NCBI GenBank assembly: GCA_025934645.1
Contig: JAICWY010000005.1
Coordinates: 1 to 64,000 of the forward strand
Direction: 5' to 3'
From: Vulcanimicrobiia bacterium
GTDB lineage: Bacteria > Vulcanimicrobiota > Vulcanimicrobiia > Vulcanimicrobiales > Vulcanimicrobiaceae
Length of the DNA stretch: 64,000 nucleotides
Of this stretch, positions 19,333 through 29,809 are shown in pieces. The notes below the pieces were generated by a model. It had not been told where the DNA came from and ran no database searches. It saw only the letters and a list, made by a program, of their open reading frames with translations. Position numbers and translations under genes: made by a program. How positions within the stretch are numbered: the first letter of the stretch is position 1; each line of letters begins with the position of its first letter.

Positions 19333-20172
19333 ATGAGGCTTAAAGGGAGTTCGCACCGCTACGTGATTGGCGGCCTCGAACTTACACGAGAACAGATCGT
19401 TCACAAGTACTTGCACCTGGTGAAGTACGTCGCTGGGCGCATCTCGGTGAACCTGCCGCCGAACGTCGAGTTGAACGATCTCATCAATGACGGCATACTC
19501 GGCCTCATCGATGCAATCGAGAAGTATGACGACGCGCGTGGTGTGAAGTTCGAAACCTACGCGATCACGCGAATCAACGGCGCGATTTTAGACGCCTTAC
19601 GGTCGCTCGATTGGGTTCCGCGGGCGGTTCGCCAACGCGCCCGCGAATTGGAACGCGCCTATCAGGCGCTGGAAGCCGAATTCGGCCGCGTGCCGACCGA
19701 AGACGAAATCGCGGAGAAGATGGGGATCTCGCGCAAAGAGCTCGACACGCTGATGCAGCGCGTGCGCGGCACGGCGGTGCTCTCGCTCGAAGAGTTTCTC
19801 CCCAACGAAAAAGGCTACGAAATTCCGCTCGTCGACACGCTTAAAGACGGCGACAACGACGTCACGACCGCCGTCGAAGCGCGCGAGATTCGAAGCGCGC
19901 TGGTCTCCGCGGTCGAAGAATTGCCGCAGCAAGAGCGCACGGTCATCTCGCTCTATTATTTCGACGGGCTCACGCTCAAAGAGATCAAGAGCGCGCTCAA
20001 CGTTTCCGAATCGCGCGTCTCGCAGATCCACGCGCAAGCCGTCATCCATCTGCGCCAAAAACTCCGCGAACTGCGCTCCGACCTGGGCTACCGTGAGGGT
20101 GACCCGAACGTCAAGCAGAAATACTTGCGGAAATCCCCGCCTGCCGCCGATAACATGGGTAGAGCCGGCTAA
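19333..20172 (+). CDS. fliA: RNA polymerase sigma factor FliA/WhiG/SigD-type
   Basis: YLHLVKYVAGRISVNLPPNVELNDLINDGILGLIDAIEKYD...; QQERTVISLYYFDGLTLKEIKSALNVSESRVSQIHAQAV. Confidence 0.95.
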   Translation: MRLKGSSHRYVIGGLELTREQIVHKYLHLVKYVAGRISVNLPPNVELNDLINDGILGLIDAIEKYDDARGVKFETYAITRINGAILDALRSLDWVPRAVRQRARELERAYQALEAEFGRVPTEDEIAEKMGISRKELDTLMQRVRGTAVLSLEEFLPNEKGYEIPLVDTLKDGDNDVTTAVEAREIRSALVSAVEELPQQERTVISLYYFDGLTLKEIKSALNVSESRVSQIHAQAVIHLRQKLRELRSDLGYREGDPNVKQKYLRKSPPAADNMGRAG

Positions 20173-20187
20173 ACTAAGGGGGCGTCG

Positions 20188-20517
20188 ATGGCGATCCGCC
20201 CGGTAGACCTACAATTAGCCTACATGGCGGCGCCGCAAAATGCGGCGCTGGTTAGTCATGCTCAGGAGTCGGCCCAGACCGCTCAACAGGCTGCGCAAAA
20301 AGCGTTTGCCGCCGAGGTCGCCGCGCGTCAGGAACAGGTGGACGGGCCTCAAAAGACCGCCGGCCAGAAAATTCATCCGCGTGAAGAGCGCGAGCCTGCG
20401 GAGCACGAGTGGTCGGACCAGCCGCGCGATGAGGACGCCGAGGAAGAAGCGCCCGTTCGGGGCGGCCCGTTCGGGCTCGCCGGCGAGGGCGAGCACTTCA
20501 TCGACGTCACCGCTTAG
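20188..20517 (+). CDS. Small flagellar-locus protein of unknown function
   Basis: MAIRPVDLQLAYMAAPQNAALVSHAQES...GEHFIDVTA; sits between fliA and a FliK-like gene. Confidence 0.6.
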   Translation: MAIRPVDLQLAYMAAPQNAALVSHAQESAQTAQQAAQKAFAAEVAARQEQVDGPQKTAGQKIHPREEREPAEHEWSDQPRDEDAEEEAPVRGGPFGLAGEGEHFIDVTA

Positions 20518-20522
20518 CCCCG

Positions 20523-22157
20523 ATGTCCTCGATCGATCCCGCCGTTTTGGCCGCCGCGCTGCAAGCCGTCGCGTCCGCGCAGAACGCTATGGCCGATGCG
20601 GTACTGCAATTGGAGGCATCCGCAGGCGCGCTGGATCTCGGTGTTACCGCAGCGGTGCTGCAGGCGCAGGTTGCCGTCGGCGACGTGCTCGCCGCCAAAG
20701 TGCTGCCGCCGCAGAACGGCACGGACTACATCGAAATTCTCGGCCGTCCGGTAGCGGCGCAGCTCCCGCCGGGCGTGTATCCCGGCGAATCGCTCAACCT
20801 TCAAATCACCGGCTTCAGCGGCACGCAAATTTTCGTCCGCGCCGTCCAAACGCCGCCCTCCGATATACCGGTTTCGCCGAGCCCTCAAAGCGCGCCGGCG
20901 CCGCAACAGAGCGCGCCGGCGCCGCAACAAAGTGCGCCGGCCGCGCGACAAGCTGTTCCAACACCGCAATCCGGCGCGCAAATACCGGAAAAGAACGCCC
21001 AGCCGCCCTTCGTCATGGTGAGCCGCGCCGAACCACGGCCGATGCCGTCGAGGCCACAGGCTGCGCCGTCGCCTGTCGCCCCGCCCCTGAACGAAAAAAG
21101 CGCTATGCCGACCGCTCGCATCGCCGCATCGCAAGCCGCTGCTCTTTCGCAACGTCCGGCGCCGCCGCAAACTGCTGCCGCCGCAACGCGCGCAACATCG
21201 CCCGCTCGCGCAGCGCAACCGGCCGTGCCCAATATCGTGCAGCGAGTGATCCGCACCGTAGGCGATCTTCTCAAAGCCGCGCGGGTTCCCGACACGCCGT
21301 TCACGCGCACGGCCGCGGCGGTCGCGCCGCAAGCGCCTACGCGGATCAGCACCGTACTGCAGCGTCTGGAATCGGCGCTTCCCAAGGCAAGCGACGACGC
21401 GCGCATCCAAACGCTGCGCACGCTGCTAGCCTTTACCTCGCGCATCGATCCCTCCAACGAAGAAACGCTTCCCGCGCAAATCTCTTCGTTCGTGTCGAAC
21501 GTCGTTGAAGGCGCCGAGCCGAAACTCTCGCAGCTGCTGCGGGCGCATGCAACTTCCAACGATAAAGATGTGCACGCAACGCCCGTTCTCGCGCAGGCGC
21601 GCGCGGCGGAACGCACGGCCGCCATCGGCCACGATCTAAAGTCCGTCGTACTCTCGCTCATGCGCGATCCGCCGGCAGAGCGCACGCCCAGCCTCACGCA
21701 GGCGTTAAACGAAACGCTGGTTACGCTGACCGCGGCGCAGCTCAACGTTCTTTCGGCGAACGCGCAAGATCCCGGAACGATTTCGATTGCGCTGCCGGCC
21801 TACTTCCACGACGGTGGAAAACCTTCGTACGTACGGATCTCTCGCGATCCGGAAAAGCGCGCGGAAAAACTGGACGCGGACAACTTTCACGTCGCGTTCG
21901 TGCTGGATACAGCGAACTTGGGCACCGTCGCAATCGATCTGCAGAGTTCGGGACGCTCGGTGAAGATCGATGTCAAAACGCAGCGCGAAGCCGCCGCGGG
22001 AACGTTTTCGCAAACGCTCGATTCGCTGCGTTCGCGGTTGGAAGACCTACGCTATCGTGTCGCTTCCGTTACTTCAAAAGCTCTGGACGCCGCATCGGCA
22101 CCCAAGCCGGCTGCGCGAGCAGCCCAGTCCGACGACGGATTGGATCTGCGCGCATGA
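20523..22157 (+). CDS. FliK/YlqG-like flagellar hook-length-control-domain protein
   Basis: Pro/Gln/Ala-rich linker (QSAPAPQQSAPAPQQSAPA) and C-terminal Flg_hook-like domain DADNFHVAFVLDTANLGTVAIDLQSSGRSVKIDVKTQRE. Confidence 0.75.
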   Translation: MSSIDPAVLAAALQAVASAQNAMADAVLQLEASAGALDLGVTAAVLQAQVAVGDVLAAKVLPPQNGTDYIEILGRPVAAQLPPGVYPGESLNLQITGFSGTQIFVRAVQTPPSDIPVSPSPQSAPAPQQSAPAPQQSAPAARQAVPTPQSGAQIPEKNAQPPFVMVSRAEPRPMPSRPQAAPSPVAPPLNEKSAMPTARIAASQAAALSQRPAPPQTAAAATRATSPARAAQPAVPNIVQRVIRTVGDLLKAARVPDTPFTRTAAAVAPQAPTRISTVLQRLESALPKASDDARIQTLRTLLAFTSRIDPSNEETLPAQISSFVSNVVEGAEPKLSQLLRAHATSNDKDVHATPVLAQARAAERTAAIGHDLKSVVLSLMRDPPAERTPSLTQALNETLVTLTAAQLNVLSANAQDPGTISIALPAYFHDGGKPSYVRISRDPEKRAEKLDADNFHVAFVLDTANLGTVAIDLQSSGRSVKIDVKTQREAAAGTFSQTLDSLRSRLEDLRYRVASVTSKALDAASAPKPAARAAQSDDGLDLRA

Positions 22158-22468
22158 ACGGCCGCTTCTACGATTTCCGTAAAGACGTCGGCGCGCGTCC
22201 CGCCGCTGCCGCGCTCAAATACGATCCGGTCGGCGACGAAGCGCCGCAAGTCGTTGCGGCCGGCCGCGGGCTGATGGCGGAAGAGATTGTCCGCGTCGCA
22301 CGCGAGAACGGCATTCCATTGCACGAAGACGCGCAATTGGTCGAGGCCCTCTCGCGGCTAGAGCTTACGGACTCGATTCCGCGCGAACTGTACGTCGTCG
22401 TCGCCGAAGTGTTGGCATATGTGTTCCGCGTGGACGCATCGGCCGCCAAACGCAGTCACTCGCGCTAA
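22154..22468 (+). CDS. FlhB C-terminal-domain homologue (FlhX/YlqH type)
   Basis: KYDPVGDEAPQVVAAGRGLMAEEIVRVARENGIPLHEDAQLVEALSRLELTDSIPRELYVVVAEVLAYVFR. Confidence 0.88.
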   Translation: MNGRFYDFRKDVGARPAAAALKYDPVGDEAPQVVAAGRGLMAEEIVRVARENGIPLHEDAQLVEALSRLELTDSIPRELYVVVAEVLAYVFRVDASAAKRSHSR

Positions 22469-22751: not shown

Positions 22752-23348
22752 ATGGGGCACTTAGTACCGACGGTTATCGAAGATACGGCCCGCGGCGAGC
22801 GGGCGTACGACATTTATTCGCGGCTTTTACGCGACCGGATCGTCTTCGTGCAAGGCGAGATCGACGATCATATGGCCGGTCTGGTTATAGCGCAATTGTT
22901 GTTTCTTGAGAAAGAAGATCCCGACAAAGATATCGACATGTACATCAACAGCCCAGGCGGCAGCGTGACCGCGGGCTTAGCCATGTACGACACGATGCAA
23001 TACATCAAACCGCAGGTCGCGACGATCTGCGCGGGGATGGCGGCATCTGCGGCGTCGGTGCTGCTGGCCGGCGGCGAAAAAGGCAAGCGGATGGCCTTGC
23101 CGTTCAGCAAGATCCTGATCCATCAGCCGTGGGTGCAGCAAATCGGCGGCCAAGCCACCGACATCGAGATTCACGCGCGCGAGCTTATCGCAACGCGCCA
23201 TTCGCTCGCAGCGCTCTATTCGGAACGCACGGGGCAGCCGCTCGCAAAGGTCTTGGAAGATCTCGAGCGCGACTATCACATGACGGCGAAAGACGCGCTT
23301 GCGTACGGGCTAATCGACGAAGTCATGAAGACGAACGGCCGCGGTTAA
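22752..23348 (+). CDS. clpP: ATP-dependent Clp protease proteolytic subunit
   Basis: [39 protein letters not shown]...[46 protein letters not shown]. Confidence 0.98.
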
Positions 23349-23394
23349 AACATAGATAATCGCACGCATCCGGTAGGCGCGTTAGCCCGAGCCT

Positions 23395-23431
23395 GCGCCG
23401 CCTCTCCGCGGATGGAGGGCGGCGCTTTTTT
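23395..23431 (+). terminator. Intrinsic terminator downstream of clpP
   Basis: GCGCCGCC...GGCGGCGC stem followed by TTTTTT. Confidence 0.85.
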
Positions 23432-23451
23432 ACGCGCCTGAAAAGCTCTCC

Positions 23452-23473
23452 GAATCGAACAGGAGTTCGATTC
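23452..23473. promoter_or_regulatory. Putative LexA/SOS box
   Basis: GAATCGAAC-AGGA-GTTCGATTC perfect inverted repeat containing TCGAAC-N4-GTTCGA. Confidence 0.65.
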
Positions 23474-23498
23474 TCGATAGGGAAGGGGCTTTACCCGA

Positions 23499-24419
23499 AT
23501 GAGTTTCTTCGCTAAATTACGCGATTCGTTCGGCAAGGCGCGTGAAACGCTCTCAGGCGTACAGGCGCTGGGGCGTGCCCGCAAACCCATCACCTCCGAA
23601 GTTTGGGACGAACTCGAAGAGCTGCTGCTCCTCGCCGATTTCGGCGTCCCGACAACCGAGAAGATCGTCGGCGGCCTCAAAACAGTCGCAAAGCAAGAGC
23701 TGTGGCGCACCAGCGATCAAATCGTCGCGCGTTTTCAAAAAGACGTCGAACGCTTTTTAACGCTGCCCGATCCGGAGCTCAACGCCGGCAATCCGCCGGC
23801 GGTCGTGCTCGTGGTCGGCGTGAACGGCAGCGGCAAGACCACCACGATCGGCAAGCTCGCCACAAAACTGCGCGCGCAGCGCAAACGCGTGCTGCTCGTT
23901 GCGGCCGACACGTTCCGTGCGGCGGCAGCGGAGCAACTCGCGATCTGGGCCGAGCGCAGCGGCGCCGATTTCGTTCGCGGCAAGGAGGGCGCAGATCCGG
24001 CGTCGGTCGTCTTCGACGGCATGCAGGCCGGAAAAGCGCGCAACGCCGACGTGATCCTGGTCGACACGGCGGGCCGTTTGCAGACCAAGACCAACCTCAT
24101 GGAAGAGCTCAAGAAAATGCGCCGCATTATCGAGCGTGAAACCGGCGGTCCGCCCGCGGAGACGCTGCTCGTGCTCGACGGCACCACCGGCCAGAACGCG
24201 ATTTCGCAGGCCAAGCTCTTCAATGAGGCCACGGCGCTCACGGGCGTCGTCGTTACGAAGCTCGATTCCACCGCCAAAGGCGGCGTACTGGTCGCCATCG
24301 TCGACACTTTGGAGATCCCCATCAAATTCGTCGGGCTCGGGGAGTCGGCGGACGCACTGCGCCCGTTCGTACCCTCGGAGTTCATCGACGCTCTCTTCGA
24401 AAATTCCGGAACGTTCTAA
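23499..24419 (+). CDS. ftsY: Signal recognition particle receptor FtsY
   Basis: VVLVVGVNGSGKTTTIGKLATKLRAQRKRVLLVAADTFRAAAAEQL...DTAGRLQTKTNLMEELKKM...GLGESADALRPF. Confidence 0.97.
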   Translation: MSFFAKLRDSFGKARETLSGVQALGRARKPITSEVWDELEELLLLADFGVPTTEKIVGGLKTVAKQELWRTSDQIVARFQKDVERFLTLPDPELNAGNPPAVVLVVGVNGSGKTTTIGKLATKLRAQRKRVLLVAADTFRAAAAEQLAIWAERSGADFVRGKEGADPASVVFDGMQAGKARNADVILVDTAGRLQTKTNLMEELKKMRRIIERETGGPPAETLLVLDGTTGQNAISQAKLFNEATALTGVVVTKLDSTAKGGVLVAIVDTLEIPIKFVGLGESADALRPFVPSEFIDALFENSGTF

Positions 24420-24500
24420 TACGATGCCATACCCTTGGCATCACCGCTCGATAGCGTGATAGTAACAACGTACGCAAAAGAAATATGGAGATGACTGAAC

Positions 24501-25544
24501 ATGGCAGCGCAAGATGAACGGCAGGTAGCCCTCAGCAATGCTCTCGCGCAGATCGAGCGTCAATTCGGCAAAGGCTCGATCATGCGGATGGGCGAGATCC
24601 AAGAGAAGATGGCGTTCGAGGTCGTGCCCTCGGGATCGATCGCGCTCGACCTGGCTTTGGGCGTCGGCGGGTTCCCGCGAGGACGCATCGTAGAGATCTA
24701 CGGACCGGAGTCCAGCGGTAAAACGACGCTCGCGCTGCACGCAATCGCCGAAGCGCAGAAAAACGGCGGCACCGCAGCCTTCATCGACGTCGAGCACGCG
24801 CTCGATCCGAACTATGCGGCGGCACTCGGCGTTGATCTCGACAATCTGCTCGTCTCGCAGCCGGATACCGGCGAACAGGCCCTCGACATCGCCGAAATGC
24901 TGATCCGCTCGAACGCCGTCGACATCGTCGTGCTCGACTCCGTCGCCGCGCTCGTGACGAAAGCCGAGCTCGAAGGCGATATGGGCGACGCGCACGTCGG
25001 TTTGCAAGCGCGCCTCATGTCGCAAGCGCTCCGGAAACTCACGGCCGCCATCTCCCGCAGCAAGTCGGTCATGGTGTTCATCAACCAACTCCGCGAAAAA
25101 GTCGGCGTCATGTTCGGTAATCCCGAAACGACCTCCGGCGGCCGCGCGCTCAAGTTCTACGCGTCGATACGTCTCGACGTGCGCAAACTCGAACAGATCA
25201 AGGTCGGCCAGGACGTTGTCGGCTCGCGCACGCGCGTCAAAGTTGTGAAGAACAAGGTCGCGCCGCCCTTCCGTCAAGCCGAATTCGATATCACCTACGG
25301 TCACGGCATCAGCAAGATGGGTTCGATCCTCGACGTCGCGCTCGAGCGCAACATCGTCGGCAAGAGCGGCTCGTGGTACACCTACGGTGAGACGCGCATC
25401 GGCCAAGGCCGTGAGAACGCCAAGTCGTACTTGGAAGAAAACAGCTTAGTTGCCGATGAGATCTCCGCGAAGATCCGCGAAGAGCTCGCGGGCCAGCTGG
25501 TCTCCCGCAACGGTTCGGCAAAGCCGGCTCCCGCCGCGGAATAG
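24501..25544 (+). CDS. recA: Recombinase RecA
   Basis: [19 protein letters not shown]...[19 protein letters not shown]...[29 protein letters not shown]. Confidence 0.99.
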
Positions 25545-25999
25545 TGGCGACCCCGTACGTGACGGCGCTGCGCATGCTTGCGCAGCGCCGCCTTACGGAG
25601 GCGCAGTTGTGGCAAAAACTCGAACGCAAGGGCTTCGAGCACGAAGCGGTCCGCGATGCCGTCGAACGCTGCAAGCGTGACGGCTATATCGACGACAAAC
25701 TCTTCGCCCAACTCTACGTAGAGCAAAAACGCAAAGCCGTGGGCAACTCGCGCCTGGTAGGGGAATTGGTGCGCAAGGGCATCGATCGCGATGCAGCCGC
25801 TACCGCTATCGAGCATTCGAGTCACGAAGAAACCGAACGCCTGGATGAAGCGCTCGCAAAACTCTTCCGTACAAAGCCTGAAGTCAGTTATCCCTCGGCC
25901 GCGCGCGCCATGGAACGCCTCGGTTTTCCGGCGTCCTTGATCTACCGGAAATTACGCGATTATGCCGCGGAATTCGGTCCGTTTGCCGATTTAGTGTAG
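25544..25999 (+). CDS. recX: Regulatory protein RecX
   Basis: Follows recA; ALRMLAQRRLTEAQLWQKLERKGFEHEAVRDAVERCKRDGYIDDKLFAQLYVEQ. Confidence 0.9.
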   Translation: MATPYVTALRMLAQRRLTEAQLWQKLERKGFEHEAVRDAVERCKRDGYIDDKLFAQLYVEQKRKAVGNSRLVGELVRKGIDRDAAATAIEHSSHEETERLDEALAKLFRTKPEVSYPSAARAMERLGFPASLIYRKLRDYAAEFGPFADLV

Positions 26000-26039
26000 A
26001 GCGTGCATGGCCGCTGGTGTTCTGGGGTACCGTGCAGCC

Positions 26040-26678
26040 ATGGATATCCTTGACGTATTACGAGAAGAACATCGCGAGGTCTCCGGCATGCTCGAGGAGG
26101 CCAAACAACACGAAGCGGGTGACGCGGAGCTCGACGAGCTGGCGGCGCGTATCGAGGAAGCGCTGACCATGCATGCGCAGCTCGAAGAGAAACTGTTCTA
26201 TCCCGAGCTTCGCGACCGGGCGGAAGACAGCGAAGAACGCATCGACGTATTCGAAGGGTTCACCGAGCACGAACTGGTGAAGCACCTCATCGCGTTGCTG
26301 CAAGGGCGGCGCCGCAATGAAGACCAGTTCAAAGCACAACTGCAGGTCTTGGGCGAAAACGTTCGCCATCACGTGCAAGAAGAAGAGTCGACGATCTTCA
26401 AACTCGCGCAGGAACTGCTCGACGAAGAAGAGCGTGAAGAACTGGGCGAGCGCTGGCAGCGGGCGAAGACGCGCGCACAATCCGGTGGGCGTGGCGGACG
26501 CAAAGCGTCCGGACGTAAAACCGCTTCACGCAAGAAGACCGGCGGACGCAAATCCACCGGCGGCCGCAAAACCACCGGCGGCCGCAAGTCTGCCGGCGGA
26601 AGCACCGGCGCGCGCGGCAAAAAGTCGGGCGGCCGGAAGAAGACCGGCGGACGCAAAAAAACCGGCTCGCGCCGGTAG
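26040..26678 (+). CDS. Hemerythrin-domain protein with basic GGRK-repeat tail
   Basis: MDILDVLREEHREVSGML...MHAQLEEKLFYPEL...HELVKHLIALL...HHVQEEESTIF; tail GGRKSTGGRKTTGGRKSAGG...KKTGGRKKTGSRR. Confidence 0.88.
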   Translation: MDILDVLREEHREVSGMLEEAKQHEAGDAELDELAARIEEALTMHAQLEEKLFYPELRDRAEDSEERIDVFEGFTEHELVKHLIALLQGRRRNEDQFKAQLQVLGENVRHHVQEEESTIFKLAQELLDEEEREELGERWQRAKTRAQSGGRGGRKASGRKTASRKKTGGRKSTGGRKTTGGRKSAGGSTGARGKKSGGRKKTGGRKKTGSRR

Positions 26679-29455: not shown

Positions 29456-29809
29456 GTGGCAATACACGGTGCCTGTGGTGAGCGCGTCGAACCACGGTTC
29501 GCGCATAGCAGCGAAGAGCACTTCGCAAACCTGCTCGACTTCTACGGAGTCGAGTGGCACTACGAGCCCCGCACGTTCCCGATTACTTGGGATGCGCGCG
29601 GCAACCCGCTCGAATCTTTCACGCCCGATTTCTACCTGCCGCAGTTCGATCTTTACGTGGAACTTACGGTTCTCCGCGCTTCGCTGCAGTCGCGCAAGAA
29701 CCGCAAGGTGCGTCTGCTGCGCGAAGCCTACCCGGGCGTGACGATCAAACTCTTCACCCGGCGCGATATCGAGCGCCTTTTCTCCAATAGATTGGCGCAG
29801 GTCTCGTGA
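29456..29809 (+). CDS. Putative PD-(D/E)xK-like nuclease-fold protein
   Basis: SEEHFANLLDFYGVEWHYEPRTFPI...SFTPDFYLPQFDLYVELTVLRASLQSRKNRKVRLLREAYPGVTIKLFTRRDIERLF. Confidence 0.55.
   Translation: MAIHGACGERVEPRFAHSSEEHFANLLDFYGVEWHYEPRTFPITWDARGNPLESFTPDFYLPQFDLYVELTVLRASLQSRKNRKVRLLREAYPGVTIKLFTRRDIERLFSNRLAQVS

Follow-up and report, generated by a model that had tools for sequence, protein, structure and literature searches.

A putative LexA operator that accompanies recA through a bacterial family, and a second, conserved candidate promoter of recA

LexA (DinR/Cheo) boxes of Gram-positive bacteria, Actinobacteria and others consist of CGAAC and GTTCG arms around a four-nucleotide spacer and are found before the recA unit and before the gene for LexA itself; the recA SOS box of M. 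tuberculosis reads TCGAACAGGTGTTCGG (PMC8607333). Mycobacterial recA combines such a LexA-controlled promoter with a second one in the PafBC arrangement (PMC8223512), PafBC being a PafB-PafC heterodimer with a non-palindromic motif (PMC6789036). In Caulobacter, DriD promoters carry a palindrome with the consensus ATACGAC-N7-GTCGTAT that overlaps the −35 region and keeps a constant spacing to the −10, and the listed DriD targets are didA, bapE, recJ and dnaG, with neither recA nor ssb among them (PMC12340889). For Salmonella, ftsY is named among the SOS genes of earlier lists and goes up with nalidixic acid (PMC8072944).

Here we analyze a palindrome before ftsY-recA-recX in a 64-kb stretch of DNA, hereafter the window, taken from contig C124 of an incomplete MAG (2.64 Mb, 84.8% complete) that is assigned, through its named relatives, to Candidatus Eremiobacterota. 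The locus resembles LexA (DinR/Cheo) systems in its CGAAC-N4-GTTCG arms, in its position before the recA unit and in belonging to a genome that encodes LexA with boxes before its own gene; with the M. tuberculosis recA box it shares the spacer AGG(T/A). It differs from these systems in that its AGGA spacer violates the R-N-N-Y pattern at the last base, is invariant and has no flanking sigma70 hexamers, and in that ftsY intervenes between operator and recA. A literature search found no study on the SOS system of Eremiobacterota.

The palindrome, its neighbors and LexA in the genome

The palindrome lies between clpP and three further genes on the same strand:

22752–23348, + strand: clpP, the upstream gene (open reading frame, named by eye from its translation)
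23395–23431, + strand: intrinsic terminator of clpP, 12-bp stem and T6 (fold of −26.2 kcal/mol for 23385–23435)
23452–23473, no strand assigned: putative LexA operator (SOS box), core CGAACAGGAGTTCG at 23456–23469 (sequence and family conservation)
23499–24419, + strand: ftsY, the SRP receptor gene (TIGR00064, 328.6 bits)
24501–25544, + strand: recA (TIGR02012, 550.8 bits)
25544–25999, + strand: recX, sharing one base with the recA stop (best match NF001065, E = 9.6e-18, at 64.8 bits below the cut-off of 175)

As a first-pass annotation of this DNA had described, GAATCGAAC-AGGA-GTTCGATTC is a perfect 9-bp inverted repeat around an AGGA spacer, forming the 22-bp palindrome GAATCGAACAGGAGTTCGATTC between the clpP terminator and ftsY. 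It lies 20 bp 3′ of the T-run of the strong terminator hairpin, which is evident from the fold though absent from the list of a simple terminator scanner, and 25 bp separate it from the ftsY ATG (23499) downstream. The simple scan also returned no + strand terminator in the ftsY-recA gap. Perfect 9-bp inverted repeats with a 4-nt spacer are not rare per se, five of them occurring within the window. The LexA word TCGAACNNNNGTTCGA, by comparison, is rare: at the window's composition 0.0027 occurrences would be expected per 64 kb, and the window has one perfect match. A second perfect CGAACNNNNGTTCG in the window (29488–29501) was dropped as a LexA site, as it lies inside coding DNA and its spacer, CACG, breaks the spacer rule. 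A pattern search of the whole genome returned 15 occurrences of CGAACNNNNGTTCG, versus 6 for the reversed control.

The genome encodes a single lexA (TIGR00498, 232.6 bits), whose product has the Pfam DNA-binding and S24 domains and LexA repressors as its best PDB matches; lexA scores above the cut-off in 86 of 99 family genomes. A lack of LexA, which the first-pass annotation had named as counting against its reading, is thereby dismissed. Three near-perfect boxes occupy the lexA promoter region of the window's genome, and near-perfect boxes of the same type were present in all 30 lexA upstreams examined. Before imuA the window's genome has TTGACAT-CGAAC-ACCT-GTTCG-ATTAGGAT, with the box sitting between TTGACA and the −10, and a same-type box was found in 19 of 20 imuA upstreams examined in the family. 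These matches bear out the first-pass assignment of the palindrome to the Gram-positive/mycobacterial type of LexA box, and we consider it very likely, judging from its sequence and conservation, that the palindrome is a LexA operator. Further perfect boxes in the genome precede a radical SAM gene (L009), a 147-aa open reading frame adjoining a gene that resembles 3-methyladenine glycosylase (L010) and a gene resembling B12-dependent ribonucleotide reductase (L005), the last two names being taken from translations. Two near-identical HNH endonucleases (L003:1530-2114 and L014:265-849) each stand behind a perfect LexA box plus TATAAT.

The surroundings hold two other features. Upstream, 19333–22468 encodes a FliA/WhiG-type sigma factor, a Pro/Gln-rich protein and an FlhB-like C-terminal protein (FlhX). 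In several relatives an FlhB-like reading frame stops a few bases 5′ of the LexA box, so that clpP seems to have been inserted in the window's genome. Directly 3′ of recX, 26007–26678 encodes a hemerythrin-like protein whose long basic tail is rich in KTGGRK.

Conservation of the box and the gene it serves

For comparison, the ftsY locus was collected from some 40 named contigs of Eremiobacterota type and from the 98 other family genomes. ATCGAAC-AGGA-GTTCGAT stands about 40 bp 5′ of ftsY in most loci, down to 61% FtsY identity. A search with CGAACAGGAGTTCG gave 62 sites, about one per genome, spread over 60 of the 99 family genomes, and none for the reversed control; dozens of related soil bacteria have thus retained the box. 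Forty-four of these sites precede ftsY-recA, 14 directly precede recA, two are at contig ends and two are strays, which we set aside (one within coding DNA, G084:C11; one away from ftsY and recA, G075:C121). Wherever the operon is assembled, the orientation of CGAACAGGAGTTCG is that of the operon. Outside the family, the AGGA box had one match in 50 other genomes of the phylum, which we take as chance; the box is therefore specific to the family. A chance palindrome in the window itself, for which its five inverted repeats might speak, is already refuted by this family-wide conservation, and we give that reading practically no weight.

Where ftsY and recA are separated, the box is found at recA and is absent from ftsY (G003, G047, G058, G090, G093 and others), and in three genera or clades (g20, g23 and g35) it has shifted into the ftsY-recA gap. 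On the FtsY tree, all states together require at least 8 changes, versus a shuffled mean of 26, and the box-at-recA state requires at least two changes for AGGA and at least two for ARAG spacers. Because the box stays with recA when the genes part, the operator appears to be kept for recA, with ftsY as a presumably co-transcribed passenger; that it belongs to recA is well supported by these comparisons. The opposite reading, in which ftsY itself is the selected SOS target and the operator raises the SRP receptor during damage, draws on ftsY being first in the unit in most family genomes and on the mention of Salmonella ftsY among earlier-listed SOS genes (PMC8072944). Each examined ftsY apart from recA lacks the box, which weakens this reading to the point where we regard it as unlikely.

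The first-pass annotation had proposed that ftsY may be in the SOS regulon together with recA and recX. The box does precede ftsY-recA-recX, and ftsY will be co-induced nevertheless if it is co-transcribed with recA; the box is not an operator of ftsY as such. That annotation also saw in this an unusual link between expression of the SRP receptor and DNA damage; given the Salmonella listing, SOS control of ftsY is not without precedent.

Our preferred reading, which we hold with considerable confidence from sequence comparison, is that the palindrome serves the recA transcription unit, here ftsY-recA-recX, as its LexA operator and limits a promoter, P1, while recA may also be served by its own promoter, P2. 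In the undamaged cell, LexA on the operator would limit P1. Upon DNA damage, RecA on single-stranded DNA would trigger LexA self-cleavage and thereby release P1, raising ftsY, recA and recX together, and recA would additionally be transcribed from P2 in the ftsY-recA gap. The place of ftsY in the regulon would then follow from its position between operator and recA and not from selection as an SOS target.

The AGGA spacer and a proposed promoter P1

The arms at 23452–23473 are identical to those of the imuA and lexA boxes, whereas the spacer is atypical. Across the family, the scored spacers of lexA and imuA boxes follow R-N-N-Y, with a purine first in 94 of 97 and a pyrimidine last in 96 of 97; the recA operator alone breaks this rule at the last spacer base. 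Across 63 distinct sequences, none of the ten arm bases varies and the flanks show no conservation; the four spacer positions are A (62/63), G (63/63), G (63/63) and A (61/63). This invariance calls for a second constraint, beyond LexA alone. The AGGA class contains no conserved sigma70 −35 or −10 hexamers, only a GAA block about 13 bp downstream, which gives two proposed elements of P1:

23460–23465, + strand: CAGGAG at the box centre, proposed −35-like element within the operator (role suggested by spacer conservation)
23482–23484, + strand: GAA with a constant spacing from the box, proposed as the −10 region of P1 (role suggested by conservation)

The AA of GAA is present in 60 of the 63 distinct sequences, at an offset of 26 (41 sequences), 27 (17) or 25 (2), and is followed by pyrimidines and, 11–14 nt further on, by a purine that is often that of the start codon. 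GAA is also kept in most genomes in which the box lies about 140 bp before recA with no nearby start codon, which argues that GAA belongs to the box. In clade g5 the box is replaced by CGAAC(A/G)TACGTTCG, with the spacer RTAC and flanked by TTGAC and TAGAGT; by its sequence, this is a textbook LexA-repressed sigma70 promoter at the same position. Clades g37 and g26 mostly have ARAG or ACAG as the spacer, and an AT-rich region lies 5′ of it. Most recA upstreams of g26/g37 (L214, L215, L218-L220, L222-L224) also have, about 35 bp 5′ of the recA LexA box, a conserved CTTAAWTAAGT palindrome followed by an AT-rich, sigma70-like region.

These patterns suggest that AGGAG may be a −35-like element read on one strand and GAA part of a −10, with LexA covering the −35. 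In keeping with this assignment, the spacing varies by one base and both blocks are replaced together in g5. Alternatively, AGGA may weaken one half-site and so keep basal expression of the essential ftsY, which is compatible with the −35 reading.

Two further explanations would dispense with LexA. The site could belong to a non-sigma70 promoter or activator factor (AGGAG as −35, GAA as −10) and owe its LexA-like arms to coincidence, which would account for the invariant asymmetric spacer, the 26/27-bp offset of GAA, the fixed orientation and the single site per genome at recA; but imuA in the same genomes has exactly these arms as its LexA consensus (ATCGAAC-N4-GTTCGAT), clade g5 shows a classical LexA promoter at this very place, and the gene concerned is recA, leaving this a rather improbable account. 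An RNA element in the ftsY leader, a 9-bp hairpin with an AGGA loop such as a CsrA-type or processing site, is less probable still: the predicted hairpin is perfect and presents AGGA in its loop, but the z-score is only −1.63, the arms are invariant and not covarying, and the same arms recur at lexA and imuA. The g37/g26 loops ARAG and ACAG lack GGA, and the CsrA-type loop was rejected on that ground. A tRNA T-arm remnant, which GTTCGATTC resembles, was likewise discarded, as ARAGORN and Rfam find nothing in the window.

A probable second recA promoter and its candidate regulon

The ftsY-recA gap holds TGCCATACCCTTGGCA-N11-TAGCGT (24425–24457), corresponding to two elements of P2:

24425–24440, no strand assigned: TGCCATACCCTTGGCA (TGCCA-N6-TGGCA), proposed second operator, that of P2 (family conservation)
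24452–24457, + strand: TAGCGT, proposed −10 element of P2 (A and T invariant in 58/58 aligned recA upstreams)

The pattern TGCCA-nnC-nnn-TGGCA-N11-[T/G]AnnnT is conserved in 58 of 62 aligned recA upstreams, which makes it likely that recA does not depend on read-through from ftsY; the first-pass annotation had missed P2. Its reading replaces that of TTGGCA-N17-GATAGT as a plain sigma70 recA promoter, since the two bases that never vary are the A and T of TAnnnT, located 11 bp past TGGCA, and a sigma54 reading of TGGCAC was rejected for lack of a TTGC −12 element.

Of the 99 family genomes, 93 contain the strict P2 pattern, usually in 2 to 14 copies, versus about 0 for the reversed control. Across the family, the genes behind it include recA, ssb, a DnaQ-like exonuclease (PF00929), a PD-(D/E)XK plus RNase H-like nuclease, HNH nucleases, a PD-(D/E)XK endonuclease (PF11645), a DncV-like nucleotidyltransferase and TnpB-like proteins. 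In many of these the start codon comes 6 nt after the −10, suggesting leaderless mRNAs. Perfect sites in the window's genome are those of recA and ssb only; sites with one mismatch stand before an HNH endonuclease and before a small open reading frame, and as one-mismatch counts are near the control (2+4 vs 1+3) these weaker sites are less certain. The HNH family behind LexA boxes in the window's genome is the family behind P2 sites in relatives, so that the LexA and P2 operators appear interchangeable. By their gene content, the P2 sites look like a second DNA-damage regulon. One relative (G019) has a DncV-like cyclic nucleotidyltransferase directly behind a TGCCA-N6-TGGCA promoter (L264:487-1494), possibly a damage-linked anti-phage gene.

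TTGTCA of RecA-NDp lies about as far from TAnnnT as does TTGGCA of P2. In the mycobacterial PafBC arrangement (PMC8223512), as here, recA has a LexA-controlled promoter plus a second, LexA-independent-looking one. Unlike PafBC/RecA-NDp sites, the P2 site is palindromic (TGCCA-N6-TGGCA), which sets it outside the PafBC class. Like DriD promoters, P2 has a palindrome that overlaps the −35 region, spanning about −39 to −24, and is evenly spaced from a −10, without a −35; unlike them, its palindrome departs from the DriD consensus, and its sites precede recA and ssb, which are not among the listed DriD targets. The genome encodes two WYL proteins, on different contigs, one of which, a 331-aa WYL-domain protein (L304:1060-2055, G000:C143), finds its best PDB matches among entries of the DriD work. 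This DriD-like protein is a candidate activator of TGCCA-N6-TGGCA promoters, and given the difference in consensus the WYL/DriD link is a lead and not an assignment. Tentatively, then, recA may be under two dissimilar damage switches: a non-sigma70 P1 with its −35 AGGAG within the LexA operator, and P2, which would place recA in a regulon that is independent of LexA (recA, ssb, exonucleases, HNH and PD-(D/E)XK nucleases, CD-NTase) and is controlled by a DriD-like WYL activator.

Within the family, arrangement or architecture changed at least eight times while the operator was retained, a natural experiment that shows which gene a repressor is kept for. If P2 is damage-inducible, the small set of bacteria in which an activator-based damage response acts at recA alongside LexA would gain another phylum, for which a target list and one candidate regulator are at hand.
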